Assembly: GCA_027577595.1 (NCBI GenBank)
Contig: JANBRJ010000002.1
Span: forward strand, 310,001 to 374,000
Origin: Coemansia sp. RSA 487
Taxonomy: Eukaryota > Kickxellomycota > Kickxellomycetes > Kickxellales > Kickxellaceae
Direction: 5' to 3'
DNA: 64,000 bases
The position numbers were made by a program, and so were the translations under genes. Shown in pieces: positions 5,201 to 59,465 of the stretch. The notes beneath the pieces were generated by a model, which was not told the origin of the DNA, did no database searches, and saw only the letters and a program-made list of their open reading frames with translations. Positions within the stretch are counted from its first letter, which is position 1. Each line of letters begins with the position of its first letter.

Positions 5201-8200
5201 ATAATACGAGAGAGCTGGTTGTATTCGGAAGATCCAGGGAACAAAGGAAGCCCAAGGTAGAGCTCAGCGACAATACACCCCAGCGACCACATATCAATAC
5301 GCGATGAGTAAGGGAGGCCAAGGAGAATCTCGGGCGATCGGTAGAAGCGCGACTGGATATACGTAAATGTGGTCTGCCATTCGAAGCAAGCCGAACCAAA
5401 GTCAATGACCTTTACAACTGGCTTCTCCATGCTTTCAAGAAGAATATTCTCGGGCTTCAAGTCGGCATGGATGATCTGTGCGTTGTTAAGCACAATCATC
5501 GCGTCTAGAATCTGCTGGACGAGCACACGCACAAGGTTTGTTGACAGCCCCTGGTACTGGTTTTGCTTGAGGAGATCGTAGAGATTGATGGACAAGAGCT
5601 CATTGACGAATACAAGATGGTGACGGAACACAAACCACTCTTTTAGTCGCATAATATGGTGCTTGTCGTCGATGTCGTACTCCTTGTTGAGAAGATCAAG
5701 CATCTGAACCTCCATCATGCTTTGGTTGTAGTACGCAGACTTGTTTTTGATCACCTTGACAGCAACCATCTCGCCAGTCCGAGTATTTTGGCACTTGACA
5801 ACCTGTCCGAATGTTCCGCTACCCAACATCTCGAGAATCAAAAACTGATGGCCATCCTTGTCTCCGATAATGTCATTCACGTAAAGAATATAGTCCGAGT
5901 TTTCGTTGTCGAAGCCATCGTTCTTTACTCCTTCAGATGGGTGTGTAAGCACCCGGCGTGGCCGACGAGCGCTTTCGTAATAAAACTTGGGATGACACTT
6001 ACGGTAGGTCTCAACAATGTCAACAGTCAGATTCAAGATAGGCTTGTAGTTGCGGAAACGAATGAGCTCCTGTTCCTGGGCCATCCTCAGCTTGAGGCGT
6101 TGCTGTTCCATTGCCATATGAAGCTGCTCCTGTTGAATCCTTTCATGTTGCAAGCGGTGTAGATAGTCCGCGTGTGCCTGGGCTTGAGCTTGCATTTGAG
6201 CTTCTGCTTGAGCTTGCGCCTGCGCCCGTGCTTGGGCTTGCGCTTGCGCATATACAGAGGCACGAGGATCAGTCGACACATAGTTATCAGGCAATACCAT
6301 ACCATACGACGACGAAACCTGTGGCGACTTGTACGAATGGTGAGCATATGGATCCTGCTCTACCATAGATGAAGGCGAGGCACCCATTGCTGCTGAGGAG
6401 TTTAGTGCAGTGTGCCCCTCAACGCCATAGCCGCTTGCATGTTGTGTATCTGCTGAAGAAGAAGCTGGTCCATTATTTGAGCGTGATACCGAATTTCGAG
6501 CGCTGACATCTACAGCGCTACCACTTCGTTTGCGGTTGTGCATCGTTTGAGTTAGTCGCCGACGCCGACGGTGCAGGTACTGCTGCGAGTCCGCATTGAT
6601 CTCGTCCATATTGCTGTTCGGAAGCTGGAGCAGCCCCTTATTGACTTCAACTGTGGGCAAGAGCGATGTCGAATCGGCTCTGGACACTTGGGAGTCGCTA
6701 AACGGCTGGTCACTGGGTGACGATATTGAGTAGTAGTCCTTGAGAATACTCGGCGCCTGCTTCCCATGCGAATTCTCTTGGCTGACTTCGGAACCTGGAT
6801 TCTGGCCAGGCTGCGCATCCAAAGAATTGAACGAATACACGCTACTGCGCCGCATGCTCTCTGGCTGGGCGTTGGCCGTGTTCTGTAGCTGCTGATTTGA
6901 ATAGCCGCTCTGGTCACCAATCCGAGGCGATAGCTGTGACCAAGAGCCATTATGAGAACCACTAGACGCTGACATATCCATTGGAAGCTGAGTACGCACA
7001 AAATTGGGCTCAGATGATCCTTGCTGCGCCAGGTAGCCTGTTCGCGGAAGTGTAGCATAAAGCTGTGAAATATGCTGCTGCTGCTTAAGATTAAGCGTTT
7101 CCGACGAAGATGTTGGCGCACTTGCCCTTGCTGCAACCGTGGCACTTCCTGCCGACAAGGAGTGCGGCATCATCGTGCTCTGCGACACGCTTAGAGAACC
7201 ACCACTCCCTAGGACTCCAGTTGCAGACTCTGCAGGGCCTAGTTCCATCCGAAGTGGAGAACCTTTGGATGTCGGGTTCCAGCGGATATGAGACATCGAC
7301 CCAACAGCGCTTGGATATTCTTGGCCCTGTTGTCCTTGCTGTGCCGGCGAGCCATAGTACCGAGCATCAGAGCCGGGACCTCCTGATGGCGAGATATTGC
7401 TACGCGTACCGCCAATTACAGCGCCCTGGCCATCACCACATACATTGCCGATTTGGTCGACAGCCATTTCCATCTGGTCATGGTTCGACTCGTGCTGTGA
7501 GATGTACATCTGCGAGTCTTGTGCAGCACTGCCAGACCGGTATCCCATCTCCGGATAGTTGTACGTTGACGTGGTGCGCATTCCCTGGCTGTCGTTAACC
7601 CCACCTCCAAACCCTGTCGATCGGGTGTTGTCTTGAGCTCCAAATTCAGAGTTGACTGACCCGTGGAACGACTGTGTCGATAAGCTGATCTCTGACGATG
7701 GCTGCCGTCTAACGATATCCGAAGCACCCAGTCTGCTGCTGTTAGAATCGGCAGGACTTTCTGCTGAGCGTGTGGGACGCATACCTGGCGGCAATGATGC
7801 ACCTGCGCCCGCAGCAGGAGATGAGCCAAGCGGGTACGGATCTGCTGCGTTCGCATCGCTATAATCATACATGTTCTGAGGCATTCGACGGCCGCGAGCA
7901 CGAGAAACCAGAGGCGAGCGGTTGCTTGCAGCATACGCAGGGAGATTGGCAGACGCAGGGCCAGCAGGAGGCAAGCCTGGCTGAGACACGGGGTACAGCT
8001 GTCCTGGGCCAGTATTTGGACTTGCATTAGCAAAGCCTCCCATCGCCAATGCTTGGTAACTAGTGTCAGAAGCCTGGTACTGTCCACTTTGGTGGTTATG
8101 TTGCTGCTGTTGCTGACTGCTGCGGCTGCTGTGTAATGCATGATCGCTTGCTGCAGAGCGCAAATGGTTATTCGCAGCATTGCCAGATGGCGGATAATTC

Positions 8201-8973
8201 GAAGAGGAACTATGCCCCTGGCGCCCGAATTGTTGGTTCTCCATTCGACCATATCCTTGCATGTGGCTAATCCCAGGCGAGGGCAGGGGCGTTGACCAGT
8301 CGTCGGGCTGGTTGTTTGGATTGAGCGCCGGATAGGCAATATGCTGGTACAACGATTCTCTCTGTGAGACCGTGTCTGTTGGTCGCATATGTGCTGTGTT
8401 CGATGCGTTTGTTCCAGAAGCCAGACCGCCACGCATAAACGGGTTTCTGGAAGGCAGAGAAGATGACAGCGATGGACTAGCACGATGCTGCTCTATCATG
8501 TTACCAAAACCTCCAACAGAGTCTATTCCCTGCTTTGGACGGATCGGCATACCAAAGGATGCATTTGTAGATACTCCTGCTGATGGATTCTGTGTGTATG
8601 TCGGTGGCTGTGCGTTCTCGCATATAAGTATAGCATGGAATGAACGGTCTGAATTGGCGGTGTTTGGCGCAGTCATCGCATGCAGCTGGTGGTCGTTATT
8701 ATCAGCAGCAGCAGCCAAAGTCGATGACATGGATACTGCATCTGTTGCAGTGGCAGCGTCAAACATGGACATGGGACGCGGGCCAGCGCTGTTCCTAGAC
8801 CCTGATGCCTGAGCCATCATCATGGGCGATGTTAGTGCGTTGTTTGTAGATGATGTGCTGTCCAGTCGAGTATGGTCAATGTAGCTATTGTAGACGTACT
8901 GTGTGTCTAAAGAAGATGTTGGAGGAACCACAGGCACGTTGCTGTTGCGTGAGCGAGTATTGTTGTAGTCCAT
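2230..8973 (-). CDS. YAK1: Very long YAK1-type DYRK protein kinase
   Basis: Predicted product 2247 residues, intronless. The kinase domain spans about residues 1040-1375 and has every catalytic element: glycine loop GSGTFG at 1051-1056, ATP-anchoring K1073, catalytic loop HADLKPEN with D1171, DFG with D1191, and the DYRK activation loop TYIQSRFYRSPE with Y1205. The usual first tyrosine of the YxY pair is Phe here (FTY). Upstream lies the DYRK-homology stretch RPRRVLTHPS...NDGFDNENSDYILYVNDI, preceded by a Gln/Ala repeat coiled coil. YAK1 kinases are nutrient-responsive growth regulators acting downstream of PKA/TOR in fungi. Family members are usually far shorter. Here about 1000 N-terminal Ser/Gln/Asn-rich residues and about 870 C-terminal residues, including an acidic patch, look mostly disordered. 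ATG start is clear. Confidence 0.93.
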   Translation of the reverse strand: MDYNNTRSRNSNVPVVPPTSSLDTQYVYNSYIDHTRLDSTSSTNNALTSPMMMAQASGSRNSAGPRPMSMFDAATATDAVSMSSTLAAAADNNDHQLHAMTAPNTANSDRSFHAILICENAQPPTYTQNPSAGVSTNASFGMPIRPKQGIDSVGGFGNMIEQHRASPSLSSSLPSRNPFMRGGLASGTNASNTAHMRPTDTVSQRESLYQHIAYPALNPNNQPDDWSTPLPSPGISHMQGYGRMENQQFGRQGHSSSSNYPPSGNAANNHLRSAASDHALHSSRSSQQQQQHNHQSGQYQASDTSYQALAMGGFANASPNTGPGQLYPVSQPGLPPAGPASANLPAYAASNRSPLVSRARGRRMPQNMYDYSDANAADPYPLGSSPAAGAGASLPPGMRPTRSAESPADSNSSRLGASDIVRRQPSSEISLSTQSFHGSVNSEFGAQDNTRSTGFGGGVNDSQGMRTTSTYNYPEMGYRSGSAAQDSQMYISQHESNHDQMEMAVDQIGNVCGDGQGAVIGGTRSNISPSGGPGSDARYYGSPAQQGQQGQEYPSAVGSMSHIRWNPTSKGSPLRMELGPAESATGVLGSGGSLSVSQSTMMPHSLSAGSATVAARASAPTSSSETLNLKQQQHISQLYATLPRTGYLAQQGSSEPNFVRTQLPMDMSASSGSHNGSWSQLSPRIGDQSGYSNQQLQNTANAQPESMRRSSVYSFNSLDAQPGQNPGSEVSQENSHGKQAPSILKDYYSISSPSDQPFSDSQVSRADSTSLLPTVEVNKGLLQLPNSNMDEINADSQQYLHRRRRRLTQTMHNRKRSGSAVDVSARNSVSRSNNGPASSSADTQHASGYGVEGHTALNSSAAMGASPSSMVEQDPYAHHSYKSPQVSSSYGMVLPDNYVSTDPRASVYAQAQAQARAQAQAQAEAQMQAQAQAHADYLHRLQHERIQQEQLHMAMEQQRLKLRMAQEQELIRFRNYKPILNLTVDIVETYRKCHPKFYYESARRPRRVLTHPSEGVKNDGFDNENSDYILYVNDIIGDKDGHQFLILEMLGSGTFGQVVKCQNTRTGEMVAVKVIKNKSAYYNQSMMEVQMLDLLNKEYDIDDKHHIMRLKEWFVFRHHLVFVNELLSINLYDLLKQNQYQGLSTNLVRVLVQQILDAMIVLNNAQIIHADLKPENILLESMEKPVVKVIDFGSACFEWQTTFTYIQSRFYRSPEILLGLPYSSRIDMWSLGCIVAELYLGLPLFPGSSEYNQLSRIIELLGSPPANILEKARRTEEFFNYLGPNIWDYKSMTQYSRERNTDEKESKRYFAATTLEELITTYPVRRRMTEAEQQREYQSRIALVDFLRGLLQLDPAKRWSPQQATMHPFITGDPLVGAFIPPHLSGSHQSGSGGGDSIGGGHNSNTPSAFSGHANQGRHYQVQGSSGGASGNMTGHTHAASYGATQKQPQHQHSAADFTNGNTGNENDSVYKYAYPISSGRSSMDENLTIPGSFPANKSIDQSNSTDHGQSTTQTVQQFYRRDSKGRVRATTIGYPSGGAVHLQSTSLNPNEQGLFGHGYALPPSQQQGIGSSFLGVDPSTYFIGNPLTADSEAQGISGHSDFISRSGSDYSGESAHGWAINRYDNSSSHSLGMMGNHGTLAGSLYDYKTTTSGHGTQRSYLLSERQQHRPVQQSQSYQNKFGESCGITSDCSDDGLVPLTRSVHSHSRTFVESKNGSSDTAAAAVTQGAYIDRISLGPSVIGPRGSPEEGANGLSLHTTPSTRNEYLFGSGTNSSSALPASVSDRQSSESCLRSDKYAAQLQPPASLLRGSAGFRLVSNFSPLTLPSTPGSSNCNKQCVGSDGAEDVDDIANVVDSYYSNGSASSNKICDRGSDDVASNATADSFVGAQGSETSYSLYSAESGGGGDDGYLTHGNGIGDVDSWVDGDSDIGSVSGESDSHNYFDITQPLVFVESAASQTVGDSGSSVYHNPRFSPQGRDIFNSIGSSFIATHGEIKPAGDKPGRGKSTRGSSPGSDADKDWESDEYDIRDDVDDGSVISQEDRAAHEGELPHGELDESPSFVNLSDWQWKSKDGMNIFEGLKDRDSSSERNSSYSADISSDGGDSDAENTGLAQQDTVVFVGKLRPAQSAAGGLSNMSVFSKLASAKRGSSGSLVGLANDTAQSFEHLHISPSPIPFSIRNVSIAAYPQKIAKKTQVNLRRTSRASQIKDNMRMIESLRRMGKLKDPNAGNFGTSHLADGPSSALC

Positions 8974-11180
8974 GGCTCTCGTCGTCGTTTTTTTTAAACC
9001 CGAGAATTCTGTGCAAAGATTCCCCCAAGCGTGTGGTATTGAAGCAATACTCTTTTTTTTGCTTTTTTTTTGCTGTCGAGGCTCTCGTGCTTGTTGCCAA
9101 GTATGCAGCCACTGGTTTCAAATAATAGTATAGCTGGAACTGCTGCTATGCACTCACTCGTCTACTCGCACGCACTCACGCCTATGTTATGAATTTTTAA
9201 TAATCAAGCCGGGTTTTAGAGTGCCCGTATTAGCCATTGTGTAATTATAGCAATGCTTTGCAAATAAAGACATGTTGTGGATGCGACACTCTTTTGTTTG
9301 GAAAACATTTCAATGTCTAACGCACGACGCACGCCATTGTGCTGAGTGAACTGATGTGATAAGAGAGCGAAAACAAGACATGTGCGGAAAATAGTATGGC
9401 AGCTTCTTACCTTATCGGATGAGTGCTATGGAGATGATAAAGCACTGGAGTTGCTTACAGCTGTTGGGTTGGAAAAAGCAGCAGCCAGTCAGACAATTGG
9501 CAATACGGTTCAAGGAAAAAGCGATAAGGACGTATAAAAGACGGATATAAGTGAATATCAGGATCCAAGAAGGATGAAAAAGGGGAGCCGAATAAAGGAT
9601 AGATGTCTTAGGCACTGCTCAACGCTAAAAGTAAAGCAGGCGTAGAGCAAAGAGCAAAAAAACCCTTGCACTTTGTACAGAAAGATACACACTGCCAGCG
9701 CGTGCGCGCCAGTGAATCTTCGTCCCTGCTTCTGGGAGATGTGCTGGAGGCAACAGGCCAAAGAGCCAATTCCTTCAATGTCTTCTTAGTAACAAACAAA
9801 GATAGAGGTACAGCGCACGCCAGGAATTAACAAAGTGTCAGAGTATCTCCGCGCACTCAATAAAGGCAAGAAAAATGGTGGGAACCCGGAAAATGCCTCT
9901 CGCCTCCTCAACTGAAAAGAAACGTGTGCCAGGTACTACATAGATAAATGGATAGCCAAAAGGAAGCTCGACGGAATTAGTACATGTGTGCACATAAACA
10001 AACGCTAAAATTCTGAAAGCAATAAGGCATACGGCGTCGTTGGGTAAAGGGGGAATTCAAATTCAAATTCAAATTCAAATTCAAATTCGGTTCAAAGAAT
10101 GTGCGCATATACGTCTAGGCTTCTTTCGACTCTAGATGGGTTAGGTTGACCCTCAATCCGCGGATTTTGCGAGACGATTCAGCTGCCCGTTTGGCAGACT
10201 TGTGCTGTTGTCAGCCTTTGTTTCTTTTTCAGCTGCTGCTGGTGTTTGCAAGCCTTCACGCATGGTTCTTACCTGCAGGTTCTGCTGTTGGCGAAACTTG
10301 GGGAGATAGCACACACCGCGAATAATTAAGAATAATGAAAAGTTTAAAAAGACGAAATGCAATAGCAGTCAGTAGAGCGTAAAACAAAGACAACACAAAA
10401 AGAGAAAAACAAGATGGGCCACAAATTCAGAAAACAACACAAAAAGGAGGGATGGGTGCAGTGATGTTTATAATGTGCTTTCTTTCTGGCTTTCGAAGAA
10501 TAAAAAACAAACACAGGCACATCAGTCAAATATGAGAAATGGCAAACAGATGATGCAGCTCATAAAACAACAGCCCATTCATCTGTGTGTGTGCATATCG
10601 CTCTCTGGATTTTTTAGTTTTTCTTTCCGCTGAGGCCAAATCGCCAAGCGCTGCATTCTCTTTGATCTCGGGCTCCAAGCATTCTCCTCTTTGAAAAGCA
10701 AGTAAAAAGGGGAGGCAGAATAGCTTGCTACGCGCAGAGCGGTGGTCGCCACAACATTCTGTGCCTGTAGCAGACTTGGCCAGTTTTGTGATCTGACAAT
10801 AACAATGAGTGCAATGCAGATTCAGCCAACCAGCCAGAACCACTTTACAAATCCCCCCTACAAACATCCCTACAAATCTCACCTGCTCCGACCTGTACAT
10901 CGTCAGCAGCCTGTCTTTACTTGCGTATTTTGTGTCCCACATGACGGAATATGAATATTATCTTTTAGAGGGTGCCAGCTGGACACCCAATCCTTTTACC
11001 AATGACGAAATTTCCGATCACGTACTTTTTTCTGGCAACAAGCTTTGCCTTTTCCGCCAAAAGCATTTCTTTCCTTCTTTTCCTTATTTTATTCTGTTAT
11101 TTATTGTCCTAGCAGAGAAATAACCAGCCATCTCTTTTTCAATCTTTATTTTAGCCCCTTTCCTTGTTAATTACTGCGCA
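8974..11180. other. Long divergent intergenic region between YAK1 and GGT
   Basis: About 2.2 kb without a gene I can support. Next to YAK1 are T-runs (9050-9072 on the plus strand) that would be A-runs in its leader. An (AAATTC)n tract lies at 10054-10088. Several short open frames exist on both strands (for example 10526-10942 minus and 10153-10362 minus), but none resembles a known protein. It probably holds two promoters and long untranslated leaders, as expected for a regulated kinase gene. Confidence 0.5.
10054..10088. repeat. (AAATTC)n hexanucleotide microsatellite
   Basis: A perfect tract of nearly six AATTCA/AAATTC units lies in the YAK1-GGT intergenic region. The same hexamer occurs as five units at 59815-59844, directly upstream of SOM1. 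Confidence 0.9.
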
Positions 11181-29319: not shown

Positions 29320-30985
29320 TGTGAGTGTACATTGGTAAAAGCGAGCATATTTTTGGTCAAGTGGGAAGAAGTGGCGATGCTGTGTGTAGGACAGCAGTGA
29401 CGAGTGCTAGAAAGAAGCGTTGGCGTTGTACGTTTAAAATAGAAGCGAAGAGCGCAAGTAAACAATGATATAAACAAGAGACGGGTTGTAGAATTAGCAC
29501 TTTGTAAACGCTGAATAAAACCAAGCAAAATACAGCATTAAATATCAATAAAAGCTCACCTAGAGCAAACATCTCACCATGCTCACCCAGCGGTCATAGC
29601 CAAAAGGGCTCTCACACCAGCCCTAAAGTCCCAACTGAGGACAGCGACGCATAGCCCGGAAAAGTTGCAGGAGTTGACTACATAAGGGCATGAGCATCGC
29701 TGAAAGGATTTTGTGTGGACAAAATAAAATGTCTAGAACGACCTATTAGTGAAACGGCAAGAATAGTGAGAATAGTTGCTTAGCAACTAGACAAGTATAT
29801 TCACAACCGCGTTTTACAGGTACTAACCTTTAAACATCATTTGTGTAAATGTATCGTTTACTTGTACTCTGTAAGCTTTTCACATTCAAGCATCGTCAGA
29901 GCAACAAGGTAAATGAATTCTGCTTTTAAAAAAAACTGGACATGCTTCAATCAATATATAGATTCAAGCAAAGTGTCTCTAAGCATCATTTTCATTGTTT
30001 TCACTCTACAAGCAAGTGGCATTGTCCACACTAGCTCCTAGCTAGAAAACTGGTGGGTCCAGTACCACGCAAGCAATAGTATTTTTTGATATATAGATTT
30101 CTATTTCAATATTTCCTAATAGACCAAATCAAAACAAAAAGTCTAAAACTTGAGAAAACCGTCGATTTTTGAAACATTTTGTGAATATGGCTTAAAACGG
30201 CTGCACGTGATTAAAACCACAGACTCCAAAAACCACAAAATAATTCATGCTTTCCTCAGGGCAGTAATGGCATTTCCCCGCACTACAAAAATGTTTGAAT
30301 ATTTTTCTCAGCTCTGATTTTGCGGAGATGGTGACAGATTTTGCAATTTGCTACTATATAAATAGATGAATAAATTCTGGAGTGTGAGTTTGTGCCCATT
30401 TATTATAAAATTATTCATTGAGCGAAATTAGACCCGCGGCTGTGTTATTGAGAATATTAAAGAAATTAAAATCAGTTTGTTGGACAACAAAAATATCACA
30501 TTCTCCACCAAAGCGCACCGAATATTTTGGAGTTCACACGTACAGAGAGTATATGAATATTCCATACTACTGTTCGTGTAAACAGGTTTAATACTATGAA
30601 TAAATGGGGAGTAATCAATGCACATATTACCAATTCATACCGTCACGCCAACTGAATGATCCATATCTGTGGATATGAAGACATTGCAACCAGCAGAGTT
30701 CGTTGAAGAAATTCAATGGCTGTCACCGATTATATCATCGCGTCATACTTAAGAGCCGCGGTCTACCTTTTCCATCTGGATGGCCAAAGCAAGCATTACT
30801 CTTTGTTAAATGTCCTTTATATTATACGCTTGCTTTGGCATTGTTCTTGTTAGCATCACATTGCCTGTCATTTGCACTTGCTACTGATATTAAATAACTT
30901 AATATTCAATACATCGTAAACCCTCGTCTAGAGATTTCTGTTTGTCTTTTTGGTCGAATAGCATTGTTCAAATTAATATCTCAAA
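29320..30985. other. Intergenic, 1.67 kb, AT-rich
   Basis: No supported gene. AT-rich with many stops on both strands. The last 100 bp form the promoter/leader of the secreted protein at 30986. No tRNA, repeat array or transposon relic was recognised. Confidence 0.45.
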
Positions 30986-32752
30986 ATGGTCCGCAGATCT
31001 ACAACCACTTACTCGCTGGTGGTCTTTGCCATCGCGCAGTCGATGATTATTGGCAGTGCTGAGGCGGCTCCCGTGTGCAATGAGCCAAGACAGAGCGAGC
31101 GCCCGCTGTTCTCTGGACTTGCACTGTTTGAATACAACACCAGCAGCTACGTGCCCGTCCCAACCCACCACTCGAGTGCCTACCATCCTGCTCCTACTCA
31201 GCCGCCCTACAACCCTCCGTATTCTGCTCCGGCTCCGGCTCCTGCTCCTGCCCCTGCTCCTGCTCCGTATGGCGCCAAGCCTGCTTCTGTTCCGTATGCT
31301 GCCAAGCCTGCTCCTGTTCCGTATAGCGCCAAGCCTGCGCCAGCTCCGTACGCTGCTAACCCTGCACCAGCTCCAGCTCCATATGGCGGACATCCAGCAC
31401 CCGCTCCTGAACCCACTCCTGCTCCGTATGCTCCAGCTCCAACTCCTGCTCCATATGCTCCAGCTCCTGCGCCGTACGCTCCTTCGAACAAGCCGCACTA
31501 TACGGCAAAGCCAACATACGTTGCGCTTCCTCCCCCTTCCTACGAGGATGACGGTGATGACGAGTCGGCGTACCCGGCGCCCTACCCAGTGGCATATCCA
31601 GTGGCCTATAAGCCGCATTACCACACCCAGCCTTACTCTTTCCACACGCCGACTATCTACTCGACTCACACGGAGACATACACGCCTCGGCCAGCGACTA
31701 TCATCAGGTCCAGAACCGACACCACATGCATAATCATCCCAACTACGTATATCGAAAACAGACCCACCACTGTTATGCACACGACGCCGCTCTACATGAC
31801 GCAGACACAGTGCTACACAGTTACAGATGTCCAGCCGACGACCATCCACCACTGCATTCCTACGTACCTGACTATCACCGAGCCATGCTACATCACTCGT
31901 GCTGTCCCATGCCCTACAACTGTTGTGCAGCAGATTCCAACCTCGACAACGACAACCGAGATCTACAGGCAAACGTGCACAACCACGACCTCTGCTACAC
32001 TCACAAACACGGCCACGCAGACATATGTGACCACACAGAGGCTGACTGGCACCGTCACCGAGGTCTACCATCATACAGAGACGCAGCATACCACTCTACA
32101 CCACACCGTTGTTGATCAACATACCTCTACCAAGTATCAGACCGACACTGAGACCCAAGTCAGCGTCAAGCACCACACGGCTACGGAGCAGGTAACAGCC
32201 GTGAAGACCGTCTATGACACCTGCTGGGACACTATTGTTGAGTGCTGCCCTATCACAGTATGCCAGCCAGTCCACGAGACCTGCTACGAGACATCCGTCA
32301 AGACGTGCGTGGAGTGCTACCCAGTTACTGTCGAGCGCCCCTGCACCGTGGCTGTTCCTACGCCGGTTTCAGTCACCGAGACCGATGTCCAGACAGTAAC
32401 CATGTGCCAGCCCGTTACTGTTTCTGTCCCAGTCACCGAATATGACACCATTTGCCAGCTTGTTACGGTCGATCGCACTGCCACAATGACCAAGCCAGTC
32501 CTCGTTGTCCAGAATGTCTGCACCGAGACATGTTGCCCTCCACCACCACCCGCTCCTTACTACGGCGGCCAGCAGCCTTACGCCTATGGTATGTATTCCT
32601 CGGGCGAAAGACATGCTGCTGAGTATGACAACGCCGATCCTGAGGAAAACAAGCCCCTGAAGAAGGCCACCCGTGCCAAGACCACTGCAAGTATTAAGAA
32701 AGCCAAGGGTCTCCACAAAGCCATTCACGCCAACAACGTAGCATACGTTTAG
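30986..32752 (+). CDS. Secreted Pro-Ala-Tyr repeat / Thr-Cys-rich matrix-like protein
   Basis: A 588-residue protein with signal peptide residues 1-27 (cut before APVCNE). Residues about 70-170 are degenerate repeats of the type APAPYGAKP and APAPYAP, typical of structural cell-wall proteins. Residues about 235-520 are Thr/Val-rich with many short beta-like units (TVTE, TVT.C.PVT) and regularly placed cysteines, including CCPITVCQPVHETCYE, CVECYPVTV and CTETCCPPPPPAPY. The C-terminus changes to a charged Lys-rich tail. Dense threonine predicts O-glycosylation. No catalytic domain was seen; a wall or spore-coat structural role is inference. No GPI signal at the C-terminus. Intronless. Confidence 0.75.
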   Translation: MVRRSTTTYSLVVFAIAQSMIIGSAEAAPVCNEPRQSERPLFSGLALFEYNTSSYVPVPTHHSSAYHPAPTQPPYNPPYSAPAPAPAPAPAPAPYGAKPASVPYAAKPAPVPYSAKPAPAPYAANPAPAPAPYGGHPAPAPEPTPAPYAPAPTPAPYAPAPAPYAPSNKPHYTAKPTYVALPPPSYEDDGDDESAYPAPYPVAYPVAYKPHYHTQPYSFHTPTIYSTHTETYTPRPATIIRSRTDTTCIIIPTTYIENRPTTVMHTTPLYMTQTQCYTVTDVQPTTIHHCIPTYLTITEPCYITRAVPCPTTVVQQIPTSTTTTEIYRQTCTTTTSATLTNTATQTYVTTQRLTGTVTEVYHHTETQHTTLHHTVVDQHTSTKYQTDTETQVSVKHHTATEQVTAVKTVYDTCWDTIVECCPITVCQPVHETCYETSVKTCVECYPVTVERPCTVAVPTPVSVTETDVQTVTMCQPVTVSVPVTEYDTICQLVTVDRTATMTKPVLVVQNVCTETCCPPPPPAPYYGGQQPYAYGMYSSGERHAAEYDNADPEENKPLKKATRAKTTASIKKAKGLHKAIHANNVAYV

Positions 32753-50900: not shown

Positions 50901-51600
50901 AGGCATTCACGGCAGGCACCAACATTTCGGCGACAGTGGGCATGTGGGGTGTTGCTGTGGCTGCTGAAGCAAATTGTAGTGGGTCTGACTTTGGGCTGGG
51001 CGCATGTTTCTTACCCTGGGCACAGTTATTTGGATTTTTACTCTTTTTGTGGCGAACATGAGAAACCAGATCGGGGTTATTCTGCAGTAGCTCTGAGCCG
51101 TATTGCTTCTTACTGGGCTGGGTACGCGTGATTGTTGATATTAGATCTGGTCGGTCTCGACGGAAGGAGTCGTGCTTGAACATGGTAAATCCGGTGGGGT
51201 GCCTGTGCTTTCGACCGTCTGTTGTTCTGTTAAACCCATAGAGATGAAGCTGACGACTAAAGGATTTAAAGATTTTGGTCGTAAAGTGTTTGGGTAAGAC
51301 ATCTTCGGCCACTTTGTCCCGGTCCTCTATCACTATTACAGTTCCGTCTTCGTTCCAATGAATATACTCGTATTCGCTGGAGCAAAGAACTCTACACAAG
51401 ATACAAACACCACAGTTTATATAGTATATTTCTTAGCAATGACACGAGCCATCGAACGGACATATTAAAACTAAATAGAAAATATGCACAAGTGATACTT
51501 ACTTGTATAGTTTGTCCGTGAACCGTTCCTGGTTTCTGACTGAAATTGGGTTGCTTTCTCTCCGTTTGGAGATATGTTTACTGCTACTAGCTTTTGGCAT
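47988..51600 (-). CDS. HSF-domain transcription factor, three exons
   Basis: Exons 51503-51600, 50688-51391 and 47988-49150 join in matching phases (2, then 1) to 654 residues. Intron 1 is 111 bp (AA/GTAAGT...TTGTGTAG). Intron 2 is 1537 bp, from GCTG/GTAAGT to GACTAACTGATTTCTATGTAG, with a perfect CTAAC branch site. The HSF DNA-binding domain spans both first exons, at about residues 25-110: RFTDKLYK (split across intron 1), EYIHWNEDGTVIVIED, VLPKHF, FKSFSRQLHLYGFNR and RHPTGFTMFKHDSF. A leucine-rich helix around intron 2 (TVYILQALNDNI...LQFVETSLQTTMTLI) could be the oligomerisation region. The rest is Ser/Pro/Thr-rich. It likely regulates stress or development genes; not clearly Hsf1 or Skn7 (no receiver domain). 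Confidence 0.85.
49151..50687 (-). other. Long intron 2 of the HSF-domain gene
   Basis: At 1537 bp it is over ten times longer than the other introns in this window. Its ends are strong consensus sites and the flanking exons are in compatible phase. It contains a heptamer repeat at 49813-49854 and no recognisable nested gene. A small extra exon cannot be excluded. Confidence 0.7.
49813..49854. repeat. (ATGTATC)6 heptanucleotide repeat
   Basis: Six head-to-tail 7-bp units, four exact and two with one change, inside intron 2 of the HSF-domain gene. Confidence 0.9.
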
Positions 51601-54600
51601 TGTCGTTATGTATGTTGTTTAGACGACTTGTATATGGCCAATAAAAAGAGTATTAAGAAATATACAGTTTTAGAGCGTTTATTGTCAGCAAGAGGTGCTC
51701 TGTTTATTGTACACAAACTAGAATATGCCTGCGAATTATAGTTTGGCTGAGCCAAAGTGTTGAAAAGGAGGGAGAAGGGCGGGTTGTATAAGCTTGCTCA
51801 AGACGCTGGTACAATTAGTGACTGGCAAAAATATTAAAACTGAGTATATACGAGATAGGCGAATGGCTCGATGACATGGAGGTATCGAATTATAAGAGAA
51901 GCAATTGTGGAAACCTGAGCCTTGAATATCTAGCGCTCACAGGAAGGAATACGTTTATATGTATAGAAGGTATGGGGGCGTCAATGAAAGCGGAATAATG
52001 GCGATGAGGATGTCAGCAAAGACAAACAGGCTTCTTGATATAGCGTTCATCAAACTCCTTTAATCGCCATTGCATTTTTGGGCACACAGAGGCGAGCCTT
52101 TTAGCATTAAAATAGCCAGCCAAAATATCCAAATGTTGTATGGCAAATAATGGCTGCATGTCAGGGTGGAAAGGAAAAGGGAACAAGCCCAGCTGTGAAT
52201 ACAACAATGTGGTAGGAGGGGAAGGAGGACGAGAGAATGGCCGACTCTTTTACGCCTCAGTAAAAAAGAGGACAAAATAGACGAAGACGCAAAAAAAAAG
52301 ACGAATCGGCAGTGCATTAAACTTAAGGGAAATAAAACATACACCTGCATGCACAACGGCGGGTCCTTAATCCTGTGGGAGGGAGGTATCGGTCCATGGG
52401 GGAAGGAACAACCCCCTCCTGCTTCCTCTCTCTCTCATTTGCTTAATTTGTCTTTTTTTTATTTTGTGGGTGTCCTGCACGAAACCGTTATTGCAAAAGA
52501 AAGAGGCACGAAATACGGACTTGGGAATCACTGTTGACACAGGATCCATATAATTTGCGTAAATTTGAACACATGTCTGCTTTCAAGGCAAGCGCGTGTC
52601 TCTACACCACAAAACCAAAAAATATGCATTTTTCAGCAGAGCATTACGAGCAAGACACAGTTTACATTTCTGTTCTTCACAAGGGATATTCCATTTTATC
52701 CTGCGCTCTGCGCCTTTCAACAGCAATAACGTATCAAGCTATTATTATTTAATGACTTCTCTTATTCCCCGCGATATAAACAGATACTGCTATGCATTCT
52801 CAGATCACTCGAGCATAGTTGCATTATGTACAGGCCACCTTACAAGATGAAAAGAGTTTGCATTCTTGCGTGCTGTTGCTTGGTTTATTTTTTGTCCAAT
52901 CTGCCGCTTTTGGACTGCTTGACAGTCAACAGACAAAGAGAAGCATCTCTCCAATATTCCTTATTGCGTCCTTGCCTGGAGATATGCCATTAATCGTATG
53001 CTGCTGAATGAATAGGCAAGATTAATGCATGGCACCACTGTGTAGCTGGGGCTAGCGCTTATGCCGAAAAGTCGGTACTGGTTTACAGTCAAGCTTCCTT
53101 TCATATTAGCTGCATTTGGCGAGAAGAGGAAGCAGTTTTCTTCTGACACGGTTGCCGTAAAAGTGCTCAATTTATGCACCACTATTGTATATATAGCTCC
53201 ATATACTCCTTTATTGTATATCGTCAAGTGCTTCTATTTATACTTTAAATGTACAATGAACATTGTATTTGAGTGGAAAGTTTAGCCCCAATTTGCCATG
53301 ACATTCCCCCAGCATCGTGGCTATACGGTATGGCGCACCATGCGCTTTTGGAACAACCAGCAATCGGTACAATGAGAAAATAAGCATCCAAGACCATTGA
53401 CCAGACAAAGGTAGAGACTCAATACGCCATGTCTCTTTCTCTCATCGACTGTACAATCATTTGCGCCAATTAATCATTTGTGTACACCCTATTCCATTGA
53501 ACGCATGGCGTGCGCCATGGTATACGCACACGTCAGACAGAGCAAGAAATATGTGCAATAACACACCCACGCACCTGTGGACTGGAAATGAAATAATGTA
53601 CTTACTTTCCGTTTTTTTGCCAAAAAAGGGGGTATCGTTGAACATCGGCCTGCGCTTTTCTTTTCAAAAATAGCCTTGCTTTTATGACAGCAAGTGGAAC
53701 AAGCATATCTTGTTCACAATATCATGTGTCTTTATCCAGTTGTTTGTTTTAAGGTCATCTGTGCATCGCGTGCAAGGAAACAAGGAAAACGAGCTGAGAC
53801 AGGTACTTGATCCACAAGCAAAATAGAGTGTAGATGTGCCTTTCAGTCGCCACAGTTGAATCGCAAATGCCCATAAAAAGTAGCCTCTAGTGGAAAAGGG
53901 CATATGATGTGAATAGTGGCAACAGATTGTGAAAATTGACATAAAATGACGATGCGGAGATGCACAAATGGTATTATAAACAACAAGACAAACTGCAACG
54001 CACTCTTGTGCATGTGCTTCTTTCTTGTTATGATTGAGGAAGGTGAGGCATATCATATTGTTGCTATTGCTGTTTTGTTTGTTTGTTTAGTTGGAAATTG
54101 CTACATCAATACCTATTTGAATTGGGCAAATTAAAACACCTGATGGCATTGGATTTTTTTTATCTTAGCCACAAAGTGCGCGAGTCAACCGTCTTTTACA
54201 CGACATAAGTGCACGAGTATATATATTCTGGGACTACCACACATCATGTGAAATGGTGAGAATATTTTATTCGGGATGTTGGCGATAACTGGCTGGCAAG
54301 AAAATCGACTAAGTTATGTACGTTTACTTTTCCATCCTTCCTACAGCAAGCGGCAACCAGTGTATGTTTATGATTAATATGATGTGGAACAAAAACAAGA
54401 TTTGCCCTTACAGCTGCAGGCTATAACCATATCCGCATTACTGCTATTGTCTGCAGCCTTCTTAGAAAATGAGCTAGCCAATAGGCTTAGCCTTCAAGAT
54501 GGCGTATTCTTGAGGCCATGTACAGCTCTGGCTGCGTAATGAAAAATATGATACAGAATGATACTAAGCAAATAAAGTGCTCTACTCGCAAAACAAACTT

Positions 54601-56291
54601 GTCTATGTTGGCCAGAGACCGGCGCATACTTATGATACTTTTGGCTACTTGTCGTCAATTTTAAAATACTTGTATACATTGAAACAAAATGCATTGCCAA
54701 AAAATCCTTCTTTTTTCTTTGGAGCTTTTGCATTCTCGCAATTCTGATATCATTTTTGAAGAAAAACCTTGTTGGGTTGTTTTTTTATTCATTGACAGTG
54801 ACATTTGGTGTTGAGAGCAGCGCCTGCAAATATGACCATGCCCATTATTCTTTTATTCTCCGTCCATATTTATGCTGAATGCTAGGCTTTTCAGTTTCGC
54901 GTATGTCATACGTTAATTAACGAGCTACGGCACGGATACAACACTGTAAATAGCCGAAACAGGTATTTGAAGCATTTAGAAAAAAGAAAAAAGAACGATA
55001 TGGTTGGCAACCGCATAAACTGAGGAAAATGAGTATGATCGCGATCATTCGTTTTGCGCGTATTGGAAATGAATTACCTAAATCAGATTAAAATTTAGCT
55101 GCAGCATCTAAAAAAACTGAAAATGTAGCAACATCAACAGCAACAAAATTAAACTGCATTTGCTCCATGTTTAAAATGGCAAAGGTATCCTCCAAATTTA
55201 TTTTCATGCACACAACCTCGCATTAATTTGATGCAATGAGAGTAAGCAAGTTATCAATTAAAAAATACATTTTAGCGGATAATACCATGCAATGAGCTTA
55301 GCAAACCATCCATATCTTGTGCATGGTATCGATGCGTTGTATAAATTGACAATGTGCACAACTAAAATGTTTTGGAGATGGCGACATAAAATGAGTTTTG
55401 CATAAGCTGTAATTACACGGATCACAGGGCTTGCTTACATGCTTCGAAGCAAGAGTGTAACTACCCAACATTATAACAAGTTGTTTTCTGAGCCAGTAGC
55501 AGAAAATGATACATATAGTCTGTGCGACATAACACAACAATAGGATAAATGACCAAATGTTTGCACGGGATATGCAATGCGCTGGCAGATCCCCCGTTCC
55601 TCATACTTGAACAGAACAAAGGAGCTTGTGCCGAACAGTTACATGTAAGGCAGTGTGGTTTTTTATCACACGTGGTCTCGCTGTCTTTGCTCGTCCTTGA
55701 AAGAAAAGGCACAGCGCACGCACATGAAATGTCTTTTTCCGCAACGCACAAACAAAACAAAATGTCCAATGTACACGTCACTTGTCCTGGACAACTGGAG
55801 AAAAGCTAGAGCGCCAATTTAAATGGCCGTTGTACACCAATTCGGCTCTCGAAGCTCAAGTCATTGTGACAATGCAAGCTAATCATGTATGCAAACGCAA
55901 TGCTAAATTCAGGCGTATGTGAGACGGATATGGCGTATGCAAATAGAGCATATATTTCAGTGTCCTCCAGCAAATAAATATAAACAACCCATGCTGCCAG
56001 CCTTTTGCAAATGTTGTTTCTGGCAGCTCTTTCTCTCGCAACTAAAGGATAAAAAGACATGTTGCACCTGTATATGCATGGTGCACATAAAGCTACATGA
56101 AAGATAACAGCACATGCAATTAACACACTACAAGGCACATCTCTCTTGTTCTTCGCATGCACCTCACAATGTAAACAAAGCTGCACAGGAAACCAATCTG
56201 CCTTTTTAAGGAAATAAATAAAAGTGACTATGAAAAAAACCTTTGTCTTTCACACACATCGCATTCGTATCAGGTGAGCAAATAAAAAAGG
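51601..56291. other. Gene-poor tract, 4.7 kb
   Basis: No gene can be supported. Open frames are short, on both strands and without family resemblance. An imperfect inverted repeat of about 30 bp lies at 53316-53345 and 53499-53530. The first part carries the promoter of the HSF-domain gene. The tract continues into the Fanzor relic, so it may be a site where mobile DNA has landed and decayed. Confidence 0.5.
53316..53530. repeat. Imperfect inverted repeat pair, about 215 bp span
   Basis: The arm at 53316-53345 (with GGTATGGCGCACCATGCGC) matches the reverse complement of the arm at 53499-53530 (CGCATGGCGTGCGCCATGG). Each arm is also partly palindromic. It could be the ends of a small non-autonomous transposon or a cruciform. 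The interior shows no coding sequence. Confidence 0.45.
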
Positions 56292-56540
56292 TTAAAATTT
56301 GACGCAATTGAACAACGCAACAGCTGGAAACTCCAAAATAAAGATTTGGCTGCCATATTTAATCCCACTCTCGTCATGAGCATTGATCGCCGATGCTGTT
56401 TCCTTGCCGAAATGTCTTTGGCAACCAATGAAAGAAATCAAGCTAGGGACACACATGTTTGCTTGTTCAATCATTTTGTCTTGTAAAAGTCTCATATCCT
56501 TTTCAAAAAGTCCATCCTTGACGACTTTGGGAAATGACAT
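56292..56540 (-). pseudogene. Protein-like open frame, possible gene fragment
   Basis: An 82-codon ATG frame has ordinary protein composition, including a helical start (MSFPKVVKDGLFEKDMRLLQ) and mixed charged and hydrophobic residues afterwards. No family recognised. It lies just left of the Fanzor element's left inverted repeat. It may be a fragment of a transposon gene or of the locus into which the element inserted, or chance. Confidence 0.25.
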
Positions 56541-56621
56541 TATTTAGCCGTTGACGCACTGTCATAAAGCAAGCGATCTTGGTGATGCAATGTCAACAGT
56601 GCAACAACAGCTCATCATCGA

Positions 56622-56750
56622 TAGCTATACTGTGCTGTGCAAGACTGGTTGCATCGAATAAGAAGGATGTATACGTGCCGAATGGTGAAAGGTTTGCAGT
56701 GGTGATAATGCATTTTGCATTCCAACAAAAAGTTGTTTGCGTCAGTTGGC
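56622..56750 (+). repeat. Left arm of inverted repeat flanking Fanzor
   Basis: Aligns with the reverse complement of 58015-58164. Shared core: TCGAATAA, ATGTATACG, CGAATGGT, GTGGTGATAA, GCATTTTGC and GTTGTTTGCGTC. At five aligned sites the right arm keeps CpG where this arm has TpG or CpA. It lacks about 21 bp that the right arm has as a partial internal duplication. Confidence 0.8.
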
Positions 56751-56922
56751 ATTATATCTGTGCTTGGAAGCAAGTGGCGCAAACTGGGCTTTGTGGAGAA
56801 AACTGTTTGCTGCACGCCTATTATTTCACTTTTGTTTCTCCTTGGATTTCCTTTGACATTTTATTTCTACTAGTAATGCCAAATACATCTTTCAATGCAT
56901 ATATTATATTAGCCATCTGCTT

Positions 56923-57815
56923 TTGTTTGCTCACCCATCCGCAATTAACAGTGAGAATATATCAGACACAGGAACACGCGTTATAAAGCGCCCCCTAAAA
57001 TCTCTGGTAAAAGACAGAAACGTCATTACCAAGGCAAACAACTATGTTGTAGCGGCCAACACAGCCTCTACACACATGCATGGGCTGGCTCGGTGGATAT
57101 TTGTCCATGAGCTGGCTACTCATAAGCAGTTCTTTCCAGGTAAATATGAGCAGTATGTCAGGACGCGTGCTGCTTTTTGGCCAGTGCTGAGTAAATTCTA
57201 CACGAACAGCATGACTGCCAGCAACAATGGGAACAACCCTCAGCCAATTCATCGCAAGCTTTGGCAATCCGCCCACATCAAGAAGCAACAAGCTGATGAG
57301 CAGCTAGCAAAGTGCATTCGGGCGACATATAACTATGAAAAACCCACTGTGATCTTAGGTAGCTGGAGTACGCCAATGGTTCGCTACTATGAGCCTATAC
57401 AGGGGATCGGATTTCGGCGAATGCTGAGGAAGAAAGAGCGCCAAATCTATCTTATTGACAAATTCAGAACATCAAAGACTTGCCTGAACTGCCTCACCGG
57501 TGCTCTTGAGAAGTTCCTGAAAGTGCCCAACCCCCCTACCAACGCGGGAAGATGAAAGAAGTGCTCTGCCACGGTCTCCTTAAGTGCACCAACGAACCAT
57601 ATATGGATCCTGTGGAAGCGGATGGTGTTTTGGCTCCTCGTTCATGCATGTACAACCGAGATCTTGCAGCTGTTCTCAACTTTAGGCATATTTTCCATGG
57701 CCTTCGCAGCCACGGTGAGACTCCAGAGTACTTTTGTCGCAGTCAGCTTGCTGCCATTGCTACCACTGAACAGCAACCTAAGAAGAAAAGGAAGATAGCG
57801 AGAACAAACAAATAA
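56923..57815 (+). pseudogene. Fanzor (eukaryotic TnpB-like RNA-guided nuclease) relic
   Basis: Two adjoining frames (56923-57555 and 57552-57815) carry Fanzor pieces in order. The N-terminal part has TRVIKRPLKSLVKDRNV and a helix LARWIFVHEL. A C-terminal part follows: HRKLWQSAHIKKQQADEQL, VILGSWSTP (family usually GDWS), EPIQGIGFRRMLRKK, YLIDKFRTSKTCLNC, CHGLLKC, then YNRDLAAVLNFRHI, the RuvC-III motif with its aspartate. Fanzors are about 600-700 residues; here the middle with most of the recognition and first RuvC parts is missing. There is no ATG, and the frame changes once in a C-rich run near 57530. The family's D-E-[YF]-x-T-S is D-K-F-R-T-S, and the second zinc pair is incomplete. It is therefore a non-functional copy. 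Confidence 0.8.
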
Positions 57816-58014
57816 CAACTGCCACGAAATTCAGCCAAGGTTATAACCGCGGCAAACCCTAGTTCTAGGATAGGAGGATGCTGATGGTGTTCCTTTTCCA
57901 GGTAGGTGCTCGAATGAGAGCCGAGGAGATAAACATCTGTGACTGCTTCTAGACAACAGCACTAATCATTTGTGTTTTCACTGTTTTCCTGTTTTGCGCT
58001 GACGCATATTCCAC
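57816..58014 (+). other. Fanzor 3' flank, candidate omega-RNA region
   Basis: In known Fanzor and TnpB loci the guide RNA is read from sequence at and after the nuclease 3' end. Here the 3' flank contains a small perfect hairpin, CCTAG-TT-CTAGG, at 57858-57869 and a GC-richer stretch to about 57950. No comparison with other copies was possible, so this is only a candidate. Confidence 0.25.
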
Positions 58015-58164
58015 GCCAACCGACGCAAACAACTTGCCACGCCTGCGCAAACAGCCTTTTCTTGGAACGCAAAATGCGTTATCACCACCGCAACCCTTTG
58101 ACCATTCGTCGCGTATACATTCTTTTTATTCGACGCAACTAGTTTTGCAAAACACAGCATATCT
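58015..58164 (-). repeat. Right arm of inverted repeat flanking Fanzor
   Basis: Reverse complement of the left arm, with more CpG retained and an internal partial duplication (GCTGTTTGCGCAGGCGTGG next to GTTGTTTGCGTCGGTTGG). It lies inside a 96-codon minus-strand frame at 57978-58268. The peptide in it (LVASNKKNVYATNGQR) resembles the left-arm translation (LVASNKKDVYVPNGER). Confidence 0.8.
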
Positions 58165-58355
58165 GCGGAAACAAGTAGTAACAGGAGAAAATAAATGAGG
58201 AGAGGACATTGGCAATTGTACACTTGGAATATAAAAGAAAAAAATGGAATAAAGTGATTTAGGTCCAATAGTTTTTGTGTGGTATCTAACAGCTCTGGAT
58301 AGGCGTTATCTCTCTCTGCGTGTGTGGCAGAGGGAGAAACTGCCGTGGCTCTTTA

Positions 58356-59465
58356 TCACGCCAGTTTCATTACCAGTTGGTAAATAAGACGCCTATACGC
58401 AACATCCTCAGCAAGCACCTGGGCAAAGGTAGAATCGCGCAAGTGCTCTGTTATCCCTTCGCGCATTTCCTCCTTGGCCTTATCGTTGTCGGCAAGACGA
58501 ATAAGACACTTTGTCACACTCTTCAGCAACCTTCCCGAAGGAGCAACAACCATCTGGTTGATTACGTTGTTGAGAATAACCAGAACCGTGTGCATTCTTT
58601 TTGGGTGAGAGGTGACATAGTGGAAACCTCCGTCATCGAGGATGATTTTTTGGAAGATAAAAGTAGCCACCACCTTACACAGCTCGCTTCCAATATCCAT
58701 GATCTTGAGGCACAGAGGTAAAAACTCTGTAGCGACAAAAAAGCTGATCACTTCATGGTTGTCGTATTTGACCAGGGCGCCGATAACACCCAGACTCGTG
58801 AGCCGCAGGTTGTCGTATTGCTTGGCCTTGCTTGTCGTGCTCAAGAAGGGATAAAGGAGCTGTGGCACATTCGCTTTGAGCAGTAGCATGCGTGTTTGTT
58901 CGTGGGTGGCGACAAGCTGGAGAAGAGCCAGCGAATTGCATGCACGATTAGACACGGGCATGGTGAGGGCCGGCGGATTGAGTAACGGATAGATGGCGAT
59001 GATCTCCTGGTACAGTATTGTCATCACTCCGTACGAGTTCCACAAGGCAACTCCCAAGTCTGGGTTCTGGTCGCGTCTCCGACTAAGCTCCGTAAGAGCC
59101 TGCTCGCGGTTGTTCGCCGAAAACAGCTCTATCATTAGTTGGTACAGCACTTCATTGTCTGAATTTGAAGTTAATGTTTGAGGATTTCCCGCGCCATTCC
59201 CAGTGCCACCGCCAGTGCTGCCACCGCTTGCTGGCGCAGAACCAGCAAACATTCTATTGAGCATCGAACCAGATGCAGGCGTGCCTTGTTGGCCACCAGG
59301 TCGCGAGTAGAGCATTTGGTTTTGGTAATTCATTGCCTCGATGTCTTTAGAATACAATGGTATTTGCTGTTCTTGCTGCTGCTGTTGCTGGGTGTAAAGA
59401 AAGTTACGAGTAAAAGGCTCCAAATTGCGATATACCTCGACCTCCGTGCTAGCGCTAATGTTCAT
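58356..59465 (-). CDS. CAF40: CNOT9 / CAF40 (RCD1) subunit of the CCR4-NOT complex
   Basis: The 369-residue protein is the conserved Rcd1/CNOT9 armadillo-repeat subunit of CCR4-NOT, the main mRNA deadenylase. The signature runs from about residue 95: VLYQLMIELFSANNREQALTELSRRR, DLGVALWNSYGVMTILYQEI, YPLLNPP, RACNSLALLQLVATHEQTR, FLSTTSKAKQYDNLRLTSLGVIGALVK, ILDDGGFHYV, and LRLADNDKA-type sequence near the end. The N-terminal 95 residues are Gln/Gly-rich and disordered (QQQQQQEQQ), as in other fungi. The ATG at 59465 is chosen; the open frame continues upstream with a non-ATG, hydrophobic stretch that is not conserved. Divergent from SOM1. Confidence 0.95.
   Translation of the reverse strand: MNISASTEVEVYRNLEPFTRNFLYTQQQQQQEQQIPLYSKDIEAMNYQNQMLYSRPGGQQGTPASGSMLNRMFAGSAPASGGSTGGGTGNGAGNPQTLTSNSDNEVLYQLMIELFSANNREQALTELSRRRDQNPDLGVALWNSYGVMTILYQEIIAIYPLLNPPALTMPVSNRACNSLALLQLVATHEQTRMLLLKANVPQLLYPFLSTTSKAKQYDNLRLTSLGVIGALVKYDNHEVISFFVATEFLPLCLKIMDIGSELCKVVATFIFQKIILDDGGFHYVTSHPKRMHTVLVILNNVINQMVVAPSGRLLKSVTKCLIRLADNDKAKEEMREGITEHLRDSTFAQVLAEDVAYRRLIYQLVMKLA

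Follow-up and report, generated by a model that had tools for sequence, protein, structure and literature searches.

The 1.53-kb unit at 56628-58159 is, with a probability of roughly 80%, the relic of a DNA transposon bounded by terminal inverted repeats (TIRs), with a TA target and most like Tc1/mariner, which would have carried a Fanzor1 gene, now decayed, and would have been moved in trans. All positions refer to the window, by which we mean the whole 64-kb stretch of DNA that was analysed. This reading upholds that of the initial annotation, a decayed Fanzor element between inverted repeats: the unit combines homology to Fanzor1 and a broken gene with a clear pair of inverted repeats. The coordinates of its features are collected in Table 1.

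The homology to Fanzor1 is found in two frames on the + strand, which we refer to as P0001 (56956-57552, 199 codons) and P0002 (57510-57812, in a different frame). Against the PDB, P0001 matched the Fanzor1 of Parasitella parasitica (PpFz1; E 6.4e-15, with the best stretch at residues 100-194) and that of Spizellomyces punctatus (SpuFz1; E 5.2e-5), and no other PDB sequence reached E 1 or better. PpFz1 was also the best match of P0002 (E 4.4e-9, residues 9-78) and the only one below 0.2; up to E 1, P0002 had ten further matches, nine of them chains of ribosomal protein S19 (0.24 and weaker) and one SpuFz1 (0.93). Across the aligned 95-residue block, identity to PpFz1 is 40%. The profile collections do not name the pieces: with Pfam, P0001 gave a sub-threshold match to the Cas12f1-like TNB domain (E 0.079, 13.6 bits versus a cut-off of 26.3) and P0002 gave none, while NCBIfam matched neither. 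For both P0001 and P0002, the homology is to Fanzor1 and not only to TnpB/Cas12f, and on these alignments the predicted peptide is a Fanzor1. A lack of similarity to Fanzor, which the initial annotation had named as one of two ways in which its identification could fail, was not observed, as PpFz1 and SpuFz1 both match.

The peptide had also been described as keeping its N- and C-terminal hallmarks. The claim stands for the C-terminal part, where the NRD of RuvC-III is kept after the zinc ribbon (NRDLAAVLNF, from 57654), and more weakly for the N-terminal part. There, P0001 residues 31-60 align to PpFz1 chain residues 539-568 (P 0.003) and a second, weak block, residues 63-84, follows in the right order at chain residues ~962-983 (P 0.028), where the chain numbering includes a fusion tag and the P values come from a shuffle test on two blocks already chosen by phmmer. 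The null consisted of 1000 shuffled queries, each compared with a random 850-residue chain of similar composition. When residues 1-100 of P0001 were searched alone against the PDB at E up to 10, there was no Fanzor among the 22 matches, all of which were glycogen phosphorylase chains (best E 0.25). This search counts against the N-terminal claim, whereas the shuffle test counts for it, and we consider an N-terminal Fanzor1 hallmark to be probably present.

Table 1. Features of the Fanzor1 relic, in order of position in the window.
Feature	Position	Strand	Evidence or remark
Candidate left target-site duplication, TA	56626..56627	.	Flush outside the arm
Left terminal inverted repeat	56628..56750	+	Pairs with the right arm over 112 nt (84.8%) and in a 21-nt block (95%)
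Probable N-terminal Fanzor1 remnant (P0001 residues 31-60)	57046..57135	+	PpFz1 539-568, P 0.003
Approximate joint of the missing central part	57136..57141	+	Both flanking alignments are weak
Weakly matched Fanzor1 block (P0001 residues 63-84)	57142..57207	+	P 0.028, PpFz1 ~962-983
RuvC-II region and first half of the zinc ribbon (P0001 residues 100-194)	57253..57537	+	P0001: E 6.4e-15 to PpFz1, 5.2e-5 to SpuFz1
Position of the alternative RuvC-II glutamate (Ealt), codes K	57460..57462	+	Alignment; Ealt as defined in PMC10711439
First zinc-ribbon cysteine pair, CLNC (kept)	57481..57492	+	
Second half of the zinc ribbon and RuvC-III, other frame (P0002 residues 9-78)	57534..57743	+	E 4.4e-9 to PpFz1
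RuvC-III motif NRDLA, aspartate kept	57654..57668	+	
Right terminal inverted repeat	58015..58159	-	Extra stretch of ~22 nt, about 58036-58057
Candidate right target-site duplication, TA	58160..58161	.	Flush outside the arm

The inverted repeats that were reported to flank the Fanzor remnant are real, and their similarity is far beyond chance. A repeat search paired 56623-56741 with 58046-58164 in inverted orientation (119 nt, 84% complementary), and the arms proper, 56628-56741 and 58046-58159, have 18 differences across 114 positions. Gapped local alignment of the arms gave a score of 144, compared with a maximum of 28 in 500 first-order Markov shuffles, and BLAST of the left arm against the window recovered its partner (84.8%, 112 nt, E 1e-31). 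A second paired block, 56730-56750 with 58015-58035 (21 nt, 95%, by BLAST), is offset because the right arm has an extra ~22 nt. The added stretch resembles the adjoining arm sequence, as if a subterminal unit (TGTTTGCG...) had been duplicated. As limits of the element, 56622 and 58164 had been proposed; each of these lies slightly too far out, including the TA plus another three to four bases of flank, whereas the arms start at 56628 and 58159.

A TA stands flush outside either arm. As it is only 2 bp long, is palindromic and also reads as part of the inverted repeat, it is modest evidence by itself; together, the long TIRs and the TA target site make the element most like Tc1/mariner. We infer that the TA is the target-site duplication, that the element belongs to Tc1/mariner and that it was mobilised in trans, with both the ends and the movement resting on the single copy examined in the 64-kb window. 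No direct repeat of at least 3 bp was found flush at the TA-marked outer ends.

The alternative that survives best, unlikely as we judge it, is that the carrier belonged to another TIR superfamily such as MuDR, with a target-site duplication that has since decayed. In support, MuDR elements often have long arms, and those of the present unit exceed 110 nt. As described in PMC3627910, some Mucorales have Fanzor1 within MuDR elements, and such carriers are flanked by 9-bp duplications in Rhizopus, Phycomyces and Mucor. Against this assignment, the arm similarity ends at a perfect TA, and a search in register at offsets from -25 to +39 gave, flush with a possible end, neither an exact direct repeat longer than 4 bp nor one of 7-12 bp with a single mismatch. 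Over these offsets, exact direct repeats reached at most 4 bp, in two cases that both lie within the arms, while slips of up to 4 bases gave matches of 4-8 bp that all lie within the arms or more than 10 bases outside. A 9-bp duplication of the MuDR type was absent at the offsets tried, although it may have decayed.

It is very unlikely that the arms have no connection with the Fanzor remnant and enclose it by chance, for example as a Fanzor relic within a different palindromic repeat. The arms are linked to a Fanzor in this one copy only, but the Fanzor pieces lie between them and leave ~0.2 to 0.3 kb free at either end, which is the layout of SPu-1-like Fanzor1 elements.

The gene within the Tc1/mariner-like relic is broken in several ways, in agreement with the earlier statement that its middle and some key residues are gone. 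The Parasitella alignment passes from chain residue ~568 to ~962, so that about 390 residues would be missing from the center of the protein; this extent is approximate, the alignments to either side of the gap being weak, and the missing part would have held the WED domain and RuvC-I. The fingerprints of Fanzor1 described in PMC10711439 are a DPG motif in RuvC-I and an alternative RuvC-II glutamate six residues before the zinc motif. There is no DPG motif in P0001 or P0002, and since the segment for it seems to have been deleted, its absence marks decay rather than another family. At the position of the alternative glutamate, the copy has a lysine where PpFz1 and SpuFz1 have a glutamate, with the surrounding motif otherwise kept. 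The zinc ribbon, whose metal-binding cysteines were judged from sequence alone, lacks a full C4 set, having a tyrosine where PpFz1 has the last cysteine, and the reading frame changes within it, near 57534. The first ATG of the P0001 frame, at 57076, is already within the homologous region. The interior between the arms, at 1264 bp, is too small for a full-length Fanzor, because SPu-1 takes ~2.1 kb to code for 633 aa (PMC3627910, where the element is described). Given these lesions, we would expect no working nuclease to come from the gene. A single-sequence structure model of P0001 had a mean pLDDT of 40.8 and was useless.

The arms differ by a K2P divergence of 0.182 (13 transitions and 5 transversions, with 5 of the 18 changes of the CpG to TpG/CpA type), which suggests an old insertion. 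The coding part looks better kept: the P0001 frame has no stops in 56956-57552, and 279 codons without an in-frame stop have a neutral P of 0.08 at half the arm divergence (9%) and of 0.007 at the full divergence. The gene may have begun to decay somewhat later than the divergence of the arms implies, or the arms may never have been identical. We do not take the zero stops as evidence for selection, as a P of 0.08 is not significant.

The same stretch could be read as a retained, cut-down and nuclease-dead Fanzor that still makes protein, like bacterial TldR, a group of RNA-guided transcription factors (as described in PMC13418256), which we find hard to credit. Catalytic positions are lost while RuvC-III and part of the zinc ribbon are kept, and there is a 232-codon stop-free frame at 56857-57555, a length reached by 0 of 2000 Markov-simulated stretches, while across 56956-57552 the other two frames have 12 and 13 stops. 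The tail of the remnant also keeps PKKKRK (57777-57794, + strand), which we take to be of the classical nuclear localisation signal form. The remains of any coding gene are expected to include an open frame, however, and the neutral P at 9% divergence given above is in line with this; moreover, the frame is broken within the zinc ribbon, one of its conserved cysteines is lost and the first ATG falls inside the homologous region. Most improbable of all is the fuller version, in which the host would have kept the centrally deleted, nuclease-dead Fanzor for binding DNA or RNA. Such a protein would be the eukaryotic equivalent of the TldR repressors, with its own nuclear localisation signal, and would perhaps be expressed from the transposon end beside CNOT9.

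Under the preferred reading of a decayed Tc1/mariner-like relic, the unit would have been a cut-and-paste DNA transposon spanning 56628-58159, with long TIRs and a TA target site, that carried Fanzor1 as a passenger. As a point against this reading, no transposase domain was detected by Pfam in P0001 or P0002, nor in 10 of the 21 ORFs of at least 70 aa listed for 51500-56600; most of the ORFs scanned in this way lie outside the unit, and inside it the scan covered P0001 and P0002. Two of the 10 nearby ORFs gave sub-threshold Pfam matches, which were taken as chance. The element would have been non-autonomous, moved through its repeats by a transposase encoded elsewhere, while Fanzor1, together with an RNA made from the right end, would have targeted and cleaved DNA, aiding the persistence of the element. 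With the middle of its coding region, its reading frame and two residues of catalytic or structural importance gone, this copy would now be inert DNA 196 bp from the stop codon of CNOT9 (Rcd1).

In the known systems, as described in PMC10432273 and PMC10711439, the guide RNA runs through the right end and stops about 15 nt beyond it. The right end of the present unit folds no better than shuffled sequence (z 0.69 for 57990-58170 and 0.38 for 58040-58165), with 148 and 121 of 200 shuffles, respectively, folding at least as well, which argues against a conserved structured RNA. Rfam gave no match in 56500-58300 at E up to 1, nor in the whole 64-kb window at gathering scores. With neither a fold signal nor an Rfam match, we therefore claim no omegaRNA.

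The hope expressed in the initial annotation, that the repeats would lead to intact copies and to the name of the carrier, was disappointed: there is no second copy in the window and no relative in the collections searched, and the TA is the only clue to the transposon type. In the window, no further copy of the arm stood out by BLAST, the next-best match being 15 nt long (E 0.021). In the viral contig collection, a protein scan with P0001 gave 6 candidate stretches and scans with two alignments, A1 and A2, gave 96 each, with none confirmed; the A1 scan of the genome contig collection gave 195 candidates, again with none confirmed. P0001 had no match in phages by tblastn at E up to 1, and no DNA relatives were found in plasmids and phages in distant mode. 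As these collections hold viral and prokaryotic DNA, they say little about copy number in the host. One stretch of a viral contig (L001) carried the core pattern of the TIR, with a left-arm alignment of ~27 bases (score 32) and a right-arm score of 36; we took it to be a chance match in so large a collection.

The unit lies among ordinary eukaryotic genes. Nine proteins of the window were scanned with Pfam, which gave a name to 8 of them: gamma-glutamyltranspeptidase, a pyridoxal-dependent decarboxylase, a Dbf4-type protein, an endonuclease/exonuclease/phosphatase-family protein, nicotinate phosphoribosyltransferase, ribosomal protein S3, an HSF-type DNA-binding protein and CNOT9/Rcd1. The ribosomal protein S3 scored best with 9p8h, a 454-residue chain matched in two stretches, and next with 7olc and 7r81, which are fungal, making a fungal host probable. 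CNOT9, a housekeeping gene, is on the opposite strand, and its stop codon (58356-58358) is 196 bp from the end of the right arm. Between 58100 and this stop codon, the only TTTATT (AATAAA on the minus strand) is at 58125-58130, in the right arm, and by its sequence this hexamer of the relic may serve CNOT9 as a poly(A) signal. Elsewhere in the window, a proline-rich coding tandem repeat with a 27/54-bp period (31226-31482) sits in a long open frame at 30977-32752, which by eye is possibly a surface or cell-wall protein, and a single open frame of 2295 codons on the minus strand (2230-9117) shows, also by eye, a putative protein-kinase domain between long low-complexity stretches.

The relic is real but ordinary, of a fossil type already described in fungi. 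As a single dead copy, it changes no view of Fanzor biology; it provides end sequences, the arms and the TA, for a Fanzor1 element of a probable fungus, and these would be a ready query in the host genome for intact copies, a partner transposase and "ghost" copies that lack a Fanzor. The closest comparison is SPu-1 of Spizellomyces punctatus, the element of SpuFz1, which PMC3627910 describes as likewise a fungal Fanzor1-only element with TIRs, putative TA duplications and a single ORF. SPu-1 differs in its ~33-bp TIRs, its length of ~2.1 kb and its multiple copies, 9 of the 17 full-length ones having intact ORFs (PMC3627910), whereas the present element has arms of more than 110 nt and a gene that is both deleted and broken. 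PUl-4 and other Tc/mariner Fanzor1 elements are similar in carrying Fanzor1 without a transposase between TIRs with TA duplications, but their TIRs match confirmed mariner families, while the present element is tied to mariner by the TA only; ESv-1, also with TA duplications and with variable TIRs, is another Fanzor family (all as described in PMC3627910).

At the protein level, PpFz1 is the best match for both pieces, but the Parasitella enzyme is active in DNA cleavage in vitro and contains a RuvC insertion (FRI) domain, as described in PMC11423790. The PpFz1 stretch from chain residue ~983 to 1097 is longer by about 100 residues than its counterpart in the present copy. There is also a likeness to the "ghost" SPu-1 loci, which are TIR-bounded relatives without a working Fanzor. 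In Spizellomyces, 134 ghost loci have similar repeats and no Fanzor ORF (as described in PMC10432273), so that arms found elsewhere without a Fanzor would not overturn our reading, as the initial annotation had supposed they might. Compared with these ghosts, the present copy has kept more of its gene, with about 217 codons in the matched blocks (30, 22, 95 and 70).
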